Program-made: the position numbers and the translations under genes
Assembly: GCA_016789455.1 (NCBI GenBank)
Contig: JAEUQU010000002.1
Location: 62,001-126,000, forward strand
Direction: 5' to 3'
From: Candidatus Saccharibacteria bacterium
Lineage (GTDB): Bacteria; Patescibacteriota; Saccharimonadia; Saccharimonadales; Saccharimonadaceae
Length of the DNA: 64,000 bases
Part shown: in pieces, positions 44,427 through 54,301 of the stretch
How the letters are laid out: every line of letters begins with the position of its first letter
Numbering within the stretch: position 1 is the first letter of the stretch
The notes under the pieces: generated by a model
What the model was told of the DNA's origin: nothing
Databases searched by the model: none
What the model saw: only the letters and a program-made list of their open reading frames with translations

Positions 44427-44494
44427 CGGCGCTGTTGCTGCGTGGCTTTGTGCCGGGTGGCAGCCAAAGGGTACTGCAAATCAATGATTTGTAG

Positions 44495-44639
44495 CCAATC
44501 GCTCGGAAAAAGCTTAGACGTGCAAGCACGTCACGCATTCTCCTCGCTCATGGCCCCATATTTACAATATGGAACCAATCGCTCGGAATATACTTAGACA
44601 TGCAAGCATGTCACGTACATTCCTCGCTCATGGCCCCAT
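44495..44639 (+). repeat. Tandem duplication of the tRNA-Glu 5' flank (period 80 bp)
   Basis: Two 65-nt copies (44495-44559, 44575-44639) begin CCAATCGCTCGGA and end CTCGCTCATGGCCCCAT; the last eight bases are the first bases of tRNA-Glu, so copy 1 ends in an orphan tRNA 5' tip. Each copy holds a palindrome that differs by a compensating pair: GACGTGCAAGCACGTC and GACATGCAAGCATGTC. Confidence 0.85.
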
Positions 44640-44706
44640 CGTCTATCGGTTAGGACACCGGGTTTTCATCCCGGCAAGAGGAGTTCGACTCTCCTTGGGG
44701 TCACCA
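44632..44706 (+). tRNA. tRNA-Glu (anticodon TTC)
   Basis: Acceptor GGCCCCA pairs with TGGGGTC (one G-U), the D-arm holds CTATCGGTTAGG, the anticodon stem CCGGG/CCCGG encloses TTTTCAT (anticodon TTC), and the T-arm is GAGGA-GTTCGAC-TCTCC. The discriminator is A and CCA is encoded (44704-44706). The 3' half overlaps the recombinase remnant on the other strand. Confidence 0.95.
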
Positions 44707-45247
44707 TAAGAGACTTTTCTTCGGAAAGGTCTTTTTTGTTGTCTTCGTCTCGGCGTTCCATATCTGTTGTTTGTTTCAAAATTGGACTGAGTTTGACGGT
44801 TCCAAATGTTTTATCTGGGTTTACGACAATTCCGGCTTCGCAAATGGCATTTTGGAACCGCTGTTGGTCACTGAGCTCCGCATGACGCCATGCGCCTGAC
44901 AAATTGACTAAAAAGTTAACAGCCTGATCGATTACTTGTTCATTCCTTGATTCCGTATCCTTCAAATCATTTCGTGCCAACTCTAGCTCTACCCGCTGAA
45001 TAGCCAGACGACCTTCTTGTTCCTGATATGTTTCATTGGTGATAAGATCCTTTAAAAATTTGTCCATAAGCCGATTTTTCATATCCTCTGCGTCCTTCAG
45101 CTTTTGGTCAATTCTCCTACGTTCTTCTTGAGTATTGAGATAATCTTCATTCCAACGGCGCAGAACTACTTGTTTGAAAACGTCCGGCACCCATCCGGCC
45201 GGCTCAACTTTCTTCAGTAGCTCTTCAAATTGCTGATGTGCTTTGAC
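44666..45247 (-). pseudogene. C-terminal remnant of a large serine recombinase (integrase)
   Basis: The frame encodes VKAHQQFEELLKKVEPAGW, then an acidic/basic coiled coil (NTQEERRRIDQKLKDAED, IQRVELELARNDLKD) as in the C-terminal part of large serine recombinases. The catalytic resolvase domain is absent; a TAA closes the frame at its 5' end (about 45248). The last codons run through the tRNA-Glu terminator and into the tRNA, ending VTPRRVELLLPG. This shows that the element used tRNA-Glu as its attachment site. Confidence 0.8.
44708..44737 (+). terminator. Terminator of tRNA-Glu
   Basis: AGAC-TTTC-ttcg-GAAA-GTCT followed by TTTTTTG on the plus strand. The same bases encode DNKKDLSEEK in the recombinase remnant on the other strand. 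Confidence 0.85.
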
Positions 45248-46839: not shown

Positions 46840-48273
46840 ATGAATACCCGAGATATCGATGTGCAAGAACTGAAACTACTTTCTGAAAAGAGGCGCATTA
46901 CTTTCTTGCGCGATCAAAAAGAAGATCAGTGGCTGGACCGGAAGAGTGCAAAGGTATCGGCTCTAAAAATTGCTAATGCCATGGTGGGCTTTGCAAATGC
47001 AGAAGGCGGAATTATCGTAATTGGGATACATGATGGCAAGATCGAGGGGATTAAAAGCGCTGGCAAGGGCAACGATTGGCGACAAGCATCCCTGGATTTT
47101 ACAATACCTCCCGTGCGACATAAGTTTGAATATATAGAATGTATCAATGAGGCTGGTGAAAAGGATGAAATCGCAATCATTGAAGTAGAGGCAGGCGAGA
47201 GGGTGCACACTAATCAGCGTGGCGAAACCTTTTTGCGTGTGGGGGATGAAAATCGCAAGCTGAACCCGCGGGAAGCCCTTGAGCTTATGTATGACAAAGG
47301 CGAATCGACCTACGATGGTACGCCAATTAAAGACGCCGCCCTAGATGATTTGGACGGCGAACTGATAAAACTTTACATCAAAAATGTGGGAGCCGATGAA
47401 AAACATGCAACCACTGTCTTAAAAGCACGCGGACTTGCCAAGGAAGTTGGAGGTGAGGTAAAACCTACAATCGCTGGCATGCTTACATTGGGCAAAAACC
47501 CTCATATGTTTTTGCCACAGGCGACCCTAAGAGTGCTTGTCTATAAGGGTTCTTCAAGAGAGACCGGTTCGCGTGCCAATGTCATTTACGATCGTAGAAT
47601 AGAGGGGCCGCTTAGCTATCAGATTGAACAGGCAAGAAGCGAACTGCAAAAAATTTTACCTCGTGCAATTCGGCTTGGATCTGAAAGTCGGTTTGGAGAA
47701 TCTACGCTAGTGCCCGAGTATGTATGGATAGAAGCTATTGTGAATGCTGCCATACATAGATCCTATAGTATAGGCGGCGACCATACGCGTATTGAAATTT
47801 TTGATGACCGCATAGAAGTTAAAAGTCCGGGTCGGCTGCCAGGTCTGGTGCGCCTAGAAAATATACGCTCGACACGCTTTGCTCGCAATCCCCGTGTTGC
47901 ACGAGCACTCAGTGATATTCGGTATGGCCGAGAACTTGGAGAGGGCGTCAACCGTATGTTCGAGGAAATGGGTATTGCCGGCCTGCCAGATCCAATCTAT
48001 ACACAAGGATCGGCATTTGTGCAGGTCGTGCTTCTTGAAGACCCATTGGCTGGTAGAATATTGCGACATCTGCCTCCTGGATCGGAACGATTTGTGGAAT
48101 TTATAAGCCGAGAGGGCCGAATTACGACAAACGAGGCTGCTTCGCTGTTGGGTGTCACGCGTCCTACGGCTCGAAAACATCTGCATGGTCTTGCTGAAAA
48201 AAAACTAATCGAACATATTGGCACTTCTGTTATGGATCCCCGTGGGTACTGGAAAATCAAAACTGGTAACTAA
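46840..48273 (+). CDS. AlbA_2 (Schlafen-like) ATP-binding transcription regulator
   Basis: Residues about 15-140 form an AlbA_2/Schlafen-type domain (QWLDRKSAKVSALKIANAMVGFANAEGGIIVIGI). About 285-400 is an ATP-binding HATPase_c_4 domain (WIEAIVNAAIHRSYSIGGDHTRIEIFDDRIEVKSPGRLPG). A C-terminal winged helix (EGRITTNEAASLLGVTRPTARKHLHGL) could bind DNA. Such proteins are common on mobile and defence islands and are often autoregulatory; flanking palindromes support that. Confidence 0.88.
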   Translation: MNTRDIDVQELKLLSEKRRITFLRDQKEDQWLDRKSAKVSALKIANAMVGFANAEGGIIVIGIHDGKIEGIKSAGKGNDWRQASLDFTIPPVRHKFEYIECINEAGEKDEIAIIEVEAGERVHTNQRGETFLRVGDENRKLNPREALELMYDKGESTYDGTPIKDAALDDLDGELIKLYIKNVGADEKHATTVLKARGLAKEVGGEVKPTIAGMLTLGKNPHMFLPQATLRVLVYKGSSRETGSRANVIYDRRIEGPLSYQIEQARSELQKILPRAIRLGSESRFGESTLVPEYVWIEAIVNAAIHRSYSIGGDHTRIEIFDDRIEVKSPGRLPGLVRLENIRSTRFARNPRVARALSDIRYGRELGEGVNRMFEEMGIAGLPDPIYTQGSAFVQVVLLEDPLAGRILRHLPPGSERFVEFISREGRITTNEAASLLGVTRPTARKHLHGLAEKKLIEHIGTSVMDPRGYWKIKTGN

Positions 48274-50871: not shown

Positions 50872-51459
50872 ATGACTAAACTACCAGGTGTAAAAGATCG
50901 TGAAATTCGGTCAACACTAAAAGACTGTTTGAGATTAGAGTATTGCTTTGATGAAAAAATGCAAATACTTGACGAATTTGGTATTAATTATGGCGAGGTT
51001 AGGGCTGACGTAGTTGCCGTGGGAGATGTAATGCACGGCTATGAAATAAAAAGCGATTACGATAGCTTAAATAGGTTGCCTAATCAGATAAAAGCTTACA
51101 ATGCCGTTTTTGATAAGGTTACGATTGTAACAGGTGCCTCACATATATATTCAGTCATAGAGATAGTGCCAGAATGGTGGGGAATACTGGTGGTGCGAGC
51201 GAACGACACAGGTGAAATTACGCTTCATTGCATACGAGAGGCGGAAGCCAATAAAAACTTAGATACACATGCATTGGCGAGGCTATTGTGGCGAGACGAG
51301 GCAATGCAAATACTTGAAGGCATTAATGCAGCACATGGAGTAAGGACAAAGCCGAAGAGTATATTGTGCGATAGGCTTACCGACAGTCTTGAGCAAGAAT
51401 CATTAAGACGCAAGGTTGTGGAAAAAATTCACTTTAGGTCAGCTTTGAGAGCTGGCTAG
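50872..51459 (+). CDS. sce7726-like protein with PD-(D/E)XK nuclease motif
   Basis: A 195-residue protein resembling the sce7726 family. Asp46 in VRADVVAV and Glu58-Ile-Lys60 in HGYEIKSDYDSLNRL form a PD-(D/E)XK nuclease-like site, with Gln72 in the next helix (PNQIKAYNAVF), so DNA cleavage or binding is likely. Its 3' end overlaps that of the convergent beta-family gene by 26 nt. The family is usually found beside a beta-family (sce7725) protein, as here. AT-rich relative to the chromosome. Confidence 0.75.
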   Translation: MTKLPGVKDREIRSTLKDCLRLEYCFDEKMQILDEFGINYGEVRADVVAVGDVMHGYEIKSDYDSLNRLPNQIKAYNAVFDKVTIVTGASHIYSVIEIVPEWWGILVVRANDTGEITLHCIREAEANKNLDTHALARLLWRDEAMQILEGINAAHGVRTKPKSILCDRLTDSLEQESLRRKVVEKIHFRSALRAG

Positions 51460-52558
51460 TCACTACTGCCAAGTGGTGGCTAACGCCTACTTCAATCCAT
51501 GTTGTAGCATTGCCGGTGCCGTCTGCTTTTGTAGGGTTATTATTTTTCTTTTGAATGTATATTGGAAAATACTCTCCTTTTTCTCGAATTATATAGTCCC
51601 CCCTGCTAAACTCTTCGCCATAGAAGTAATCATCGTCCATTAAAGAGTTTGCATGAGCTAGATAGTGGTCAAAACGTAGAACCTCACCTTTCATAACTAG
51701 CCACTCAAGCTCCAGGGTATATTTAAGGCTACAGGATGGGTGATGCCGTGAGGCTTCTTCGCTAAAAATTGGATGACGAATTGTATAATCACCGTATGTT
51801 GGTATGCGGATCATGCCTGGCATCTGTGTCATTGTTATCCACCCAAGCCAGTCATTTCTCTTGACTAAATTTTCCTCATCCTGCTTGCAGTGCATTAAAC
51901 TTGACGGGAAAGCCCCACTTGCCAAAACGAAAGATCGCCACTCATTCAGATGAGTGATTGACTGTATTTGCAGAGAGATTCGTCGGTATACTTTTCGAGA
52001 TGGGGTAAATTTTAGGTCAATTACTAAATCTATATCTACATAGTCCACTTTAATTTTTTCGACAAAGGCTTCCAGTTGCTTGTTGAGAAGATCAAAATCT
52101 AAAAGGTCGTTAGGCGTTAACCGTATACATATACCATTGTCATACGATTTGTGTAGCGACGACAGAAGACTTATGTAAGTAGAGGTGTCACGTATGTTGA
52201 CTACAGGAATAATGCTTAAGTCATATTCATGTGCAGCTGAAATTATCTCGTTAGTGCCAAAAGCCTTTGCATCTCCAGATGCGGCTAAACTTAGGTCTAC
52301 GAGTATAGGTTTTGAGCCCCAAAAGTTTTTTATATCCCTGACGGCCTTCGTTAAGTAACTCTCACTTGACGTGGATAGTGAAGTTCTTGAATTAAAGTCA
52401 GATGACATAGGATTTGATGATGTATCTAATTCGGGCAAGACAATCTCTATAAGAGGCAAAATGTTCTCTTTTGCATCCATGGCTAGGCTGGCAAGAGCCT
52501 TTTTCTCTCCCCCGCGCCACTTGAGAAATGGCATGTAATTTCGAGGTATTACAGGCAT
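51434..52558 (-). CDS. Beta family protein (sce7725-like)
   Basis: The N-terminus YMPFLKWRGGEKKALASLAMDAKENILPLIEIV is the signature of the phage-type Beta protein family, with a TIM-barrel-like order later (PILVDLSLAA, DLSIIPVVNI, CIRLTPNDLL, DLVIDLKF). The function is unknown; it occurs in phages and defence islands, commonly with sce7726-type proteins. It follows the HTH-peptidase gene by 5 bp and is probably in its operon. Confidence 0.8.
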   Translation of the reverse strand: MPVIPRNYMPFLKWRGGEKKALASLAMDAKENILPLIEIVLPELDTSSNPMSSDFNSRTSLSTSSESYLTKAVRDIKNFWGSKPILVDLSLAASGDAKAFGTNEIISAAHEYDLSIIPVVNIRDTSTYISLLSSLHKSYDNGICIRLTPNDLLDFDLLNKQLEAFVEKIKVDYVDIDLVIDLKFTPSRKVYRRISLQIQSITHLNEWRSFVLASGAFPSSLMHCKQDEENLVKRNDWLGWITMTQMPGMIRIPTYGDYTIRHPIFSEEASRHHPSCSLKYTLELEWLVMKGEVLRFDHYLAHANSLMDDDYFYGEEFSRGDYIIREKGEYFPIYIQKKNNNPTKADGTGNATTWIEVGVSHHLAVVTSQLSKLT

Positions 52559-52563
52559 TTATG

Positions 52564-53775
52564 TTAACCCCTGTAATAGGTTGGGAAGAAGTGGCGAACC
52601 TTAGCCTCCTCGACTACATTGCTTAAGATATGCCACTCGCCTGTTTCATATCTTATTTTGCCAGCGACGATTGCCATGTGGACGCTCAGTGTTTTGGCAA
52701 GTTTCCGAGCGGCCATAGGGGATGGCAAAAATTTTGCAGGGCTAATATCCCATATGACTGAGGGAATAAGGGCTTCGCTAGCTAGGCGATCCGCATCTTC
52801 TTCATGGGCGCTGACTTGCATTCCCTTTAGGCCATCTAGCTCATCAAAGAAAAAGTTAATATCTTCATGCTCTGAGTGCAGGGAAATATGGGCTAGTTCA
52901 TGCATCAGTGTGAACCAAAAGTTGTCTAAACGATCAAGCCTGAGGGTTAAACCGATGACAGGTGCCTTGGTGGACGTAAAGAGTACCGCGCCATCAAGAC
53001 GAGTTTTTGGTAACTCTGGTTCGATAATTACAGCAATTCCTTTCTGTCGGAGTGCATTTATTGCCAGCACGGGACTGTCTTCGCTGGTGGTGAGCTTGGC
53101 AAGCTCCCGCATGAAATCAATAGTTATGCTTCCAGGCACAAAGGGCTGCTGTATTGCTTCGGTTTCTGCACGCGCCAAAACTTGAGTGGCCCATGCAAAC
53201 AATGCCTTGCGATCGGTAGTGGGGGCAGATCTATAGCTAGACTGCCTAAGTAGTATAGGGGCAGCAACTGGTGCTTCTATGGCAGAGAAAAAGCTTGACA
53301 ATATTGTACTTGGCTCTGAATCATCTTGGACATCTGCAAAGTAATTCCGGTTTCGCATGATGGTAAACAGTTTCTTATCCCAATCTCCGAAAAAACTTTC
53401 TTGAAATGGTTGTGATTGTTTTAAAAGGGAATCAGAAGGAATCCCTAATCCTTCTGACAATGCACGAATCATAGAAACAGTAAGCTGTCGTTTTCCCGAT
53501 AGAATTTCGGACACACGGCTTTTGCTACCAATGTATGGAATGAGGTCGGCAGGACGAAGGCTGAGTTGGTCCATGCGGAATCGAATCGCTTCAATTGCGC
53601 TAGGTAGTTGTTTTGGAAAGTTCTTTTGCTCGTAAGCACTCAGTAGGGTTGAGAGAATACTTAGTCGATCACCTTCCTCGCTATCAGGTGCGGGGTCAAG
53701 TAAAAGGATTTCTTCAAGTAATGCGAGAGCTTCCTCGTAGTCCTTCTCCGTACGTATTGCTTTAATTTTACTCAT
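52564..53775 (-). CDS. HigA-type HTH antitoxin fused to ImmA/IrrE metallopeptidase
   Basis: Residues 1-60 match the N-terminal region of COG5499 HigA-type antitoxins. An HTH follows (about 74-112: LRPADLIPYIGSKSRVSEILSGKRQ). The C-terminal part is an ImmA/IrrE peptidase with HELAH (292-296) and a later EEDADRLASEALIP. Such proteins repress their operon and are removed by self- or trans-cleavage. The 5' end overlaps the HigB-like gene by 8 nt. Confidence 0.88.
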   Translation of the reverse strand: MSKIKAIRTEKDYEEALALLEEILLLDPAPDSEEGDRLSILSTLLSAYEQKNFPKQLPSAIEAIRFRMDQLSLRPADLIPYIGSKSRVSEILSGKRQLTVSMIRALSEGLGIPSDSLLKQSQPFQESFFGDWDKKLFTIMRNRNYFADVQDDSEPSTILSSFFSAIEAPVAAPILLRQSSYRSAPTTDRKALFAWATQVLARAETEAIQQPFVPGSITIDFMRELAKLTTSEDSPVLAINALRQKGIAVIIEPELPKTRLDGAVLFTSTKAPVIGLTLRLDRLDNFWFTLMHELAHISLHSEHEDINFFFDELDGLKGMQVSAHEEDADRLASEALIPSVIWDISPAKFLPSPMAARKLAKTLSVHMAIVAGKIRYETGEWHILSNVVEEAKVRHFFPTYYRG

Positions 53776-54070
53776 GACTGTATTTTCCTATATCCCATTT
53801 ATCATATTCCCTGTGAGTGCCCGCTTTAATTACTTTGACTATGCGGTTTAAGTAACTTATCAGTACCCAAATTCGATATTTATTACCACTTATGTTAAAG
53901 ACGATTTCCCTACGATTGATAATGCTTGCATGACTATAACGTTCCTTGACTCGATGGGAACTTTGCCAGTCGGCAGCTTCGACTTCAGCTTCCCAGGCAT
54001 TTATCTGGCCTACTGCATCAGGGTGTTTGCGCTTAAAGCTCGCCAGCTCTTCTTTATTATGTAAAGTCAT
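53768..54070 (-). CDS. HigB-type toxin (mRNA interferase-like)
   Basis: A 100-residue protein of the HigB_toxin type: KRKHPDAVGQINAWEAEVEAADW, YSHASIINRREIVFNISGNKYRIWVLISYLNRIVKVIKAGTHREYDKWD. Proteins of this kind cut mRNA on the ribosome. As first gene of the operon it is followed by its probable antitoxin, the usual higBA order. Confidence 0.88.
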   Translation of the reverse strand: MTLHNKEELASFKRKHPDAVGQINAWEAEVEAADWQSSHRVKERYSHASIINRREIVFNISGNKYRIWVLISYLNRIVKVIKAGTHREYDKWDIGKYSHE

Positions 54071-54301
54071 ATCCCGGTCGCTGTATTAATTGGTTCCCAT
54101 ATTGGGAACAATTGTAAGGCATGGTTTTGTTCTAGTCAAGGCCTTGTTCGGGATGAGGCTGGCGCGACCTACTATATAAAAAGCGGGTCACGATACATAA
54201 GAGGCATAGGTGAACCATTATTATGCTTATAAACTTTAAGGAACACTTCTGTCCGTGATACTCTAGTAACAAGCAACTGCCCAACATAAAAAGAGACATC
54301 C

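Follow-up and report, generated by a model that had tools for sequence, protein, structure and literature searches.

The 64,000-nt stretch of Candidatus Saccharibacteria DNA analysed here (the window; contig JAEUQU010000002.1, positions 62,001 to 126,000) carries a block of four genes, HigB, HTH-ImmA, beta and a converging sce7726-family gene (cII). This block is probably a horizontally acquired abortive-infection system, a four-gene, cII-containing variant of PD-lambda-2 in which HigB would be the effector, HTH-ImmA its antitoxin, and beta and cII the components that respond to infection. The role in phage defence proposed in the first-pass annotation gains strong support from two homologous systems that have been tested, PD-lambda-2 (PMC9519451) and gop-beta-cII (PMC9122126). 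The locus combines parts of these two systems, both already shown to block phage, and is not categorically new.

Three of the genes are tightly packed on the minus strand. The first encodes a HigB-like, PD-lambda-2A-like toxin of 100 aa (53768..54070) which retains R66, H86 and Y89. It overlaps by 8 nt the gene for a HigA-like, PD-lambda-2B-like HTH-ImmA/IrrE metallopeptidase of 403 aa with an intact HExxH (52564..53775), and a gap of 5 nt precedes the intact ORF of the 374-aa, PD-lambda-2C-like beta protein, predicted to adopt a TIM-barrel-like fold (51434..52558). On the plus strand, the likewise intact ORF of a 195-aa sce7726/cII-family PD-(D/E)XK nuclease-like protein (50872..51459) converges on beta, and the two coding sequences overlap tail-to-tail by 26 nt (51434..51459). 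When re-read from the sequence, the four ORFs agreed with the first-pass annotation in coordinates, strands and spacing.

Profile searches placed each product in a family. HigB matches HigB_toxin (PF09907, 2.9e-21) and the PADLOC model PD-Lambda-2_A (4.6e-31). HTH-ImmA matches Peptidase_M78 (PF06114, 3.4e-7), HTH_3 (5e-5) and PD-Lambda-2_B (1.3e-130); its N-terminal part matches HigA structures (1e-13), and HExxH was found in every full-length homologue. Beta matches Beta_protein (PF14350, 1.9e-55) and PD-Lambda-2_C (2.9e-38). That all three minus-strand genes match PADLOC PD-lambda-2 models had been missed in the first-pass annotation. The fourth product matches the sce7726 model NF033832 at 8.3e-51 (172.5 bits, compared to a curated cut-off of 70) and the PADLOC model 'cll' at 4.5e-25. 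Since cII of satellite phage P4 also matches 'cll' (3.2e-113) and carries the annotation 'sce7726 family protein', 'cll' corresponds to the cII of gop-beta-cII.

The block is AT-richer than its surroundings, as had been proposed, with a GC content of 43-44% at 51-54 kb compared to about 58-60% for the chromosome. Its placement on an island starting at tRNA-Glu is not supported, however: that island is a separate AT-rich patch (about 44.7-48.3 kb, 43-48% GC), about 2.5 kb of host-like sequence (54-58% GC) lies in between, and a search for a duplicated tRNA 3′ end or an att repeat as right border found none. A same-genus genome (G380) lacks the genes flanking the block and gave no island boundaries. 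Full-length HTH-ImmA was found in the window genome only, among 151 relatives, and the four-gene block therefore looks horizontally acquired. An integrase remnant lies about 5.7 kb from the block.

To place the block in a wider context, we searched 84,980 species genomes with an HTH-ImmA profile, which yielded at least 578 relatives, and scanned the neighbourhoods of the best 80; this set favours sequences near the query, so that the counts given below are not census frequencies. Three architectures were observed: HigB, HTH-ImmA and beta with a convergent sce7726; the same three genes with no sce7726 beside them, seen in Proteobacteria, E. coli C among them; and HigB with HTH-ImmA but no beta. 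The complete block occurs in a single gene order at 14 loci (from the best 80 of at least 578 relatives, the window and the loci of a phylum search), and one further locus of this type is broken off by a contig end. The four families thus co-occur elsewhere in conserved order, as the neighbourhood survey proposed in the first-pass annotation was meant to establish. The hosts are mostly Patescibacteria (Saccharibacteria, Parcubacteria, Falkowbacteria, Komeilibacteria and WWE3), with others in Omnitrophota, a Bacteroidetes MAG and Neomarinimicrobiota. Within the phylum sample, 4 of 362 genomes contain beta and 5 of 380 contain sce7726. All four beta genomes have sce7726 and hold the complete block, so that the association of beta with sce7726 is more than chance.

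The closest tested relative, PD-lambda-2, blocks lambda-vir by abortive infection (PMC9519451). Unexpectedly, in the E. coli system B is the toxic component and is rescued by A (Vassallo et al. 2022, PMC9519451), while the beta-type C is required for defence and not for neutralisation (PMC9519451). The window locus resembles PD-lambda-2 in the adjacency, order and strand of A (HigB-like), B (HTH-ImmA) and C (beta), and in a common operator. It differs in three respects: the additional convergent cII nuclease, clades of their own for beta and HTH-ImmA, and the state of HigB, whose R66, H86 and Y89 have been lost in the PD-lambda-2 clade, a proteobacterial one to which the E. coli system belongs. 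These residues correspond to R68, H88 and Y91 of E. coli K-12 HigB and are, by analogy with the RelE/HigB superfamily, presumably catalytic. Among the matches listed, all three are retained in 14 of 14 four-gene loci and in nearly all beta-less loci. H86 and Y89 are gone in 15 of 16 three-gene loci of the same set, and R66 is changed too in nearly all of them; the sole exception with H86 and Y89 (L080) is placed outside the PD-lambda-2 clade. As judged by sequence, the window HigB looks catalytically intact, and a role reversal of the PD-lambda-2 kind should therefore not be assumed in the window, where by analogy it could still apply. A natural reading is that HigB decay in the PD-lambda-2 clade may lie behind the exchanged roles of A and B.

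The distribution of cII separates the two types in the same way. Among the matches listed, cII accompanies every one of the 14 four-gene loci. When only loci with at least 2.5 kb of sequence beyond the B gene are considered, sce7726 is present in 10 four-gene loci and in none of the 11 assessable three-gene loci, and it is absent genome-wide from 12 of 13 three-gene genomes. In phylogenies, four-gene-type beta and HTH-ImmA each formed a clade of 14 (SH-aLRT 97-99; 100/99 for beta in a careful tree), separate from the PD-lambda-2 clade, with the Neomarinimicrobiota locus L081 just outside the four-gene clade. A constraint holding both types as one clade was not rejected (p-AU 0.62 for HTH-ImmA and 0.32 for beta).

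These comparisons bear on whether the locus is simply an ordinary PD-lambda-2, in which HTH-ImmA would be toxic and restrained by the HigB-like protein as in E. coli, with cII as a passenger. Such a view would fit the PADLOC names of the three genes, the operator and HExxH common to both types, and the single clade that the trees do not reject. We nevertheless consider it unlikely: the HigB residues kept in one type and lost in the other mean that the reversal need not apply, cII follows one type almost exclusively, and each type forms its own clade, a few outlying rows aside. In view of the cII census and the comparison of HigB residues, the label 'PD-lambda-2, already known' is incomplete and was rejected. 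An independent proposal, that HigBA-ImmA met beta twice, was also dropped: its p-AU of 1e-5 was driven by long-branch rows and disappeared once these were removed, and beta gave no rejection.

The second tested relative is gop-beta-cII of satellite phage P4 (Rousset et al. 2022, PMC9122126), which blocks lambda and P1 and whose gop is toxic without beta (PMC9122126). In both loci a toxin precedes beta on the same strand and an sce7726-family cII converges on it. The first-pass annotation had described beta/sce7726 pairs as being of unknown role only; the P4 beta-cII is that very pair and is anti-phage (PMC9122126), and PD-lambda-2C is itself a beta protein. The differences concern the toxin module (Gop in P4, HigB with HTH-ImmA in the window), the length of cII (264 aa in P4, 195 aa in the window) and the beta/cII junction (a 27-nt gap in P4, an overlap in the window), and the sequences are very distant. 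Upstream of the window beta lie HTH-ImmA and, before it, HigB, with no gop gene; consistently, the PADLOC 'gop' model matches P4 gop (4.8e-70) and no window protein.

Beta and cII behave as a pair. In 58 of 59 loci with convergent beta and sce7726 the stop codons overlap; in the remaining one the genes are 27 nt apart, consistent with P4. Tallied by hand, 50 of the 59, and all four-gene loci, have an overlap length of 2 mod 3. Over 55 loci, the distances of beta and sce7726 are correlated (r = 0.73, Mantel p 0.0005), and so are those of HTH-ImmA and sce7726 over 16 HTH-ImmA-beta-cII loci (r = 0.83). At the level of sequence distances, these correlations show co-inheritance rather than interaction, and common ancestry contributes to them. 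Phages and prophages carry beta-cII pairs, with no HigB or HigA-ImmA detected alongside. In the sce7726 searches, a closer alignment (A4) served as query, a 12-row alignment (A2) being too diverged; the window sce7726 protein alone as query gave no match among viral contigs.

The structural model supports a nuclease-like fold for cII. The AF2 single-chain model is confident (pLDDT 96) and displays the alpha-beta-beta-beta-alpha-beta core of PD-(D/E)XK proteins, with D on strand 2 (D46, strand 43-50), ExK on strand 3 (E58 and K60, strand 54-60) and Q in the next helix (Q72, helix 69-79). Structure prediction had been suggested in the first-pass annotation as a check of the EIK motif, which indeed falls on the strands expected for such a site. 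E35, D46, E58, K60 and Q72 are invariant across 39 homologues. The top structural match in the PDB is 3dnx (E 2e-5); Bax1 and tRNA-splicing endonucleases come next and match weakly. A single-sequence search of the PDB found no relative of sce7726, nor of HigB.

The invariant residues and the confident predicted fold are what could make cII the main effector, cleaving phage or host DNA once licensed by beta and the toxin-antitoxin pair, as in the nuclease-effector model of the first-pass annotation. Beta-cII pairs in phages and prophages, where HigB and HigA-ImmA were not detected, would also agree with the pair being a unit of its own. Such a DNA-directed mechanism is quite improbable in our view, given that PD-lambda-2 defends without cII and that the known toxic part of gop-beta-cII is gop, not cII (PMC9122126).

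The beta protein was likewise modelled as a single chain (AF2, pLDDT 91.8), with alternating strands and helices of the TIM-barrel type. Comparison with PDB structures gave weak matches only (TM at most about 0.4 on query length) and no close solved relative, and a search of the PDB by sequence also gave weak matches. The conserved residues E18, D88, R146, D181, R234, D257 and H362, several of them at or near strand ends in the model, suggest a possible active or binding site.

A palindromic operator, GTTCCCA-N3-TGGGAAC, the predicted HigA site, lies just upstream of HigB (54093..54109, minus strand). Among the matches listed, 13 of 14 four-gene loci and all 16 PD-lambda-2 loci have TTCCCA-N3-TGGGAA, with no more than 2 mismatches, 5′ of HigB; shuffled sequences average 4.5-4.8 mismatches. 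A sigma-70-like promoter for the HigB operon, TTGACT-17-TACAAT (54111..54139, minus strand), abuts the operator; it is a consensus match only (10 of 12 positions), and such matches in the region are no more numerous than in shuffles. The operator is absent upstream of sce7726 in the window, so that cII appears, as judged by this motif, to be expressed apart from the HigB operon.

How would the four products act together in an abortive-infection system of this kind? The genes and their families, the gene order, the operator, the retained HigB residues and the co-inheritance are observed. Two further points, activity against phage and a requirement for beta in defence, come from tested homologues and would hold here by analogy; the direction of toxicity, the trigger and the role of cII are what we infer. 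HTH-ImmA would bind and neutralise HigB and repress the operon at TTCCCA-N3-TGGGAA. The co-inherited pair of TIM-barrel-like, enzyme-like beta and cII would respond to infection. The first-pass annotation had put a plausible trigger in the toxin-antitoxin pair; because the tested PD-lambda-2 homologue does not defend without beta, the triggering component may instead be beta, which would destabilise the HigB/HTH-ImmA complex, possibly via the ImmA domain. HigB thus freed, as an effector of the ribosome-dependent mRNA interferase type, would stop translation. As an accessory nuclease or sensor, cII would cut or sense nucleic acid; because PD-lambda-2 works without it, cII may be dispensable.

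Beyond the window, the first gene of ImmA-beta-cII loci is variable. DUF6932 occupies this position in L284 (7e-30), from a Gammaproteobacteria-centred sample, and on a viral contig (L113, 7e-31). GNAT-like first genes occur on two further viral contigs (L019, 4e-5; L020, 3e-6), and L286 and L287 begin with a small protein that appears to have a membrane segment. In P4 the toxin is Gop, and there is no ImmA. It is thus conceivable, at somewhat less than even chances, that PD-lambda-2 and gop-beta-cII form one modular family: a beta core that senses infection, usually with an overlapping cII and often with an ImmA metallopeptidase, would be combined with varying toxins (HigB, Gop, DUF6932, GNAT-like or small membrane proteins), the window form being the fuller one from which PD-lambda-2 derived by cII loss and HigB decay. 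The window locus connects two anti-phage systems, validated by experiment but mechanistically unexplained, through one shared core. It suggests HigB decay as a sequence-level reason for the PD-lambda-2 role reversal, and it offers a naturally occurring form for experiments in which every component looks intact. With it, a recurrent toxin-antitoxin-based defence module is placed in Patescibacteria; given the reduced genomes of this group, the retention of any block of four defence genes is notable.

Toxin exchange is already known for RosmerTA (RmrT-RmrA), whose ImmA-domain antitoxins occur with varied toxins (PMC10440598). As described there, RosmerTA shares with the window locus an HTH-ImmA antitoxin adjoining a toxin, exchangeable toxins and anti-phage activity, and differs in that neither beta nor cII is described for it in the part of the source consulted (PMC10440598). 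The window HTH-ImmA matches RmrA models weakly (1.7e-4, compared to 1.3e-130 for PD-Lambda-2_B), RmrA not being its best match. With the classical higBA of E. coli K-12, the locus shares the HigB family, the equivalents of R68, H88 and Y91 and a HigA-like N-terminal part; it differs by the fusion of HigA to a metallopeptidase and by two attached genes.

HigBA pairs are classic addiction modules, and the pair, the AT-rich patch, the sporadic distribution and the integrase remnant about 5.7 kb away would suit a selfish or stabilising module that is carried by a mobile island and lacks a specific phage trigger; this is very improbable, since a toxin-antitoxin pair suffices for addiction, which leaves co-inherited beta and cII without a role, and two homologous systems proved anti-phage when tested. 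In the neighbourhood scan, some beta-less HigB/HTH-ImmA cassettes directly precede type I (HsdR-like) or type III-like restriction proteins, or GmrSD.

The coding sequences of sce7726 and beta overlap tail to tail in 58 of the 59 pairs from the loci compared, which include the window (51434-51459). The phase of this overlap is strongly biased, being 2 mod 3 in 50/59. The two genes form an overlapping pair of unusual persistence.

The position of the toxin gene can be taken by another protein. In L284, a locus from the Gammaproteobacteria-centred sample, and in the viral contig L113, a DUF6932 protein (L284:3930-4409 and L113:4890-5426, respectively) occupies the toxin position before HTH-ImmA-beta-cII. 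Both proteins carry, as judged by eye, a nucleotidyltransferase-looking motif of the G-S/D-x-D type, and DUF6932 is here a candidate for an uncharacterised toxin family. In five loci (L049, L050, L087, L088 and L089), a HigB/HTH-ImmA cassette devoid of beta directly precedes a restriction protein (HsdR-like, type III-like or GmrSD), which suggests that defence systems of several types are guarded or regulated by such cassettes. On the Acinetobacter pittii plasmid pNDM-AP_882 (L008), the HTH-ImmA gene is followed by a short beta fragment, with an IS30-family element and Tn7-like genes as neighbours; this is apparently a decayed relative.

At tRNA-Glu, a 174-aa ORF (44666-45190, minus strand), the end of which overlaps the tRNA 3′ end in antisense, resembles the C-terminal region of an integrase, probably a large serine recombinase; the match (1.6e-6) covers positions 444-578 of the 651 in phrog_95. 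The ORF is probably the remnant of a disrupted integrase and a trace of an old insertion event at this tRNA. Two 73-nt direct repeats (44487-44639), 84% identical and spaced by 80 nt, lie immediately 5′ of tRNA-Glu and extend into it. The adjoining AT-rich patch carries a plus-strand gene (46840-48273) for a Schlafen AlbA_2 and RecG-C-type ATPase-like regulator (PF04326, PF13749; phrog_12156, 2.7e-119), possibly a second defence-type gene in the window; it also gave partial matches to pAgo-type PADLOC models.
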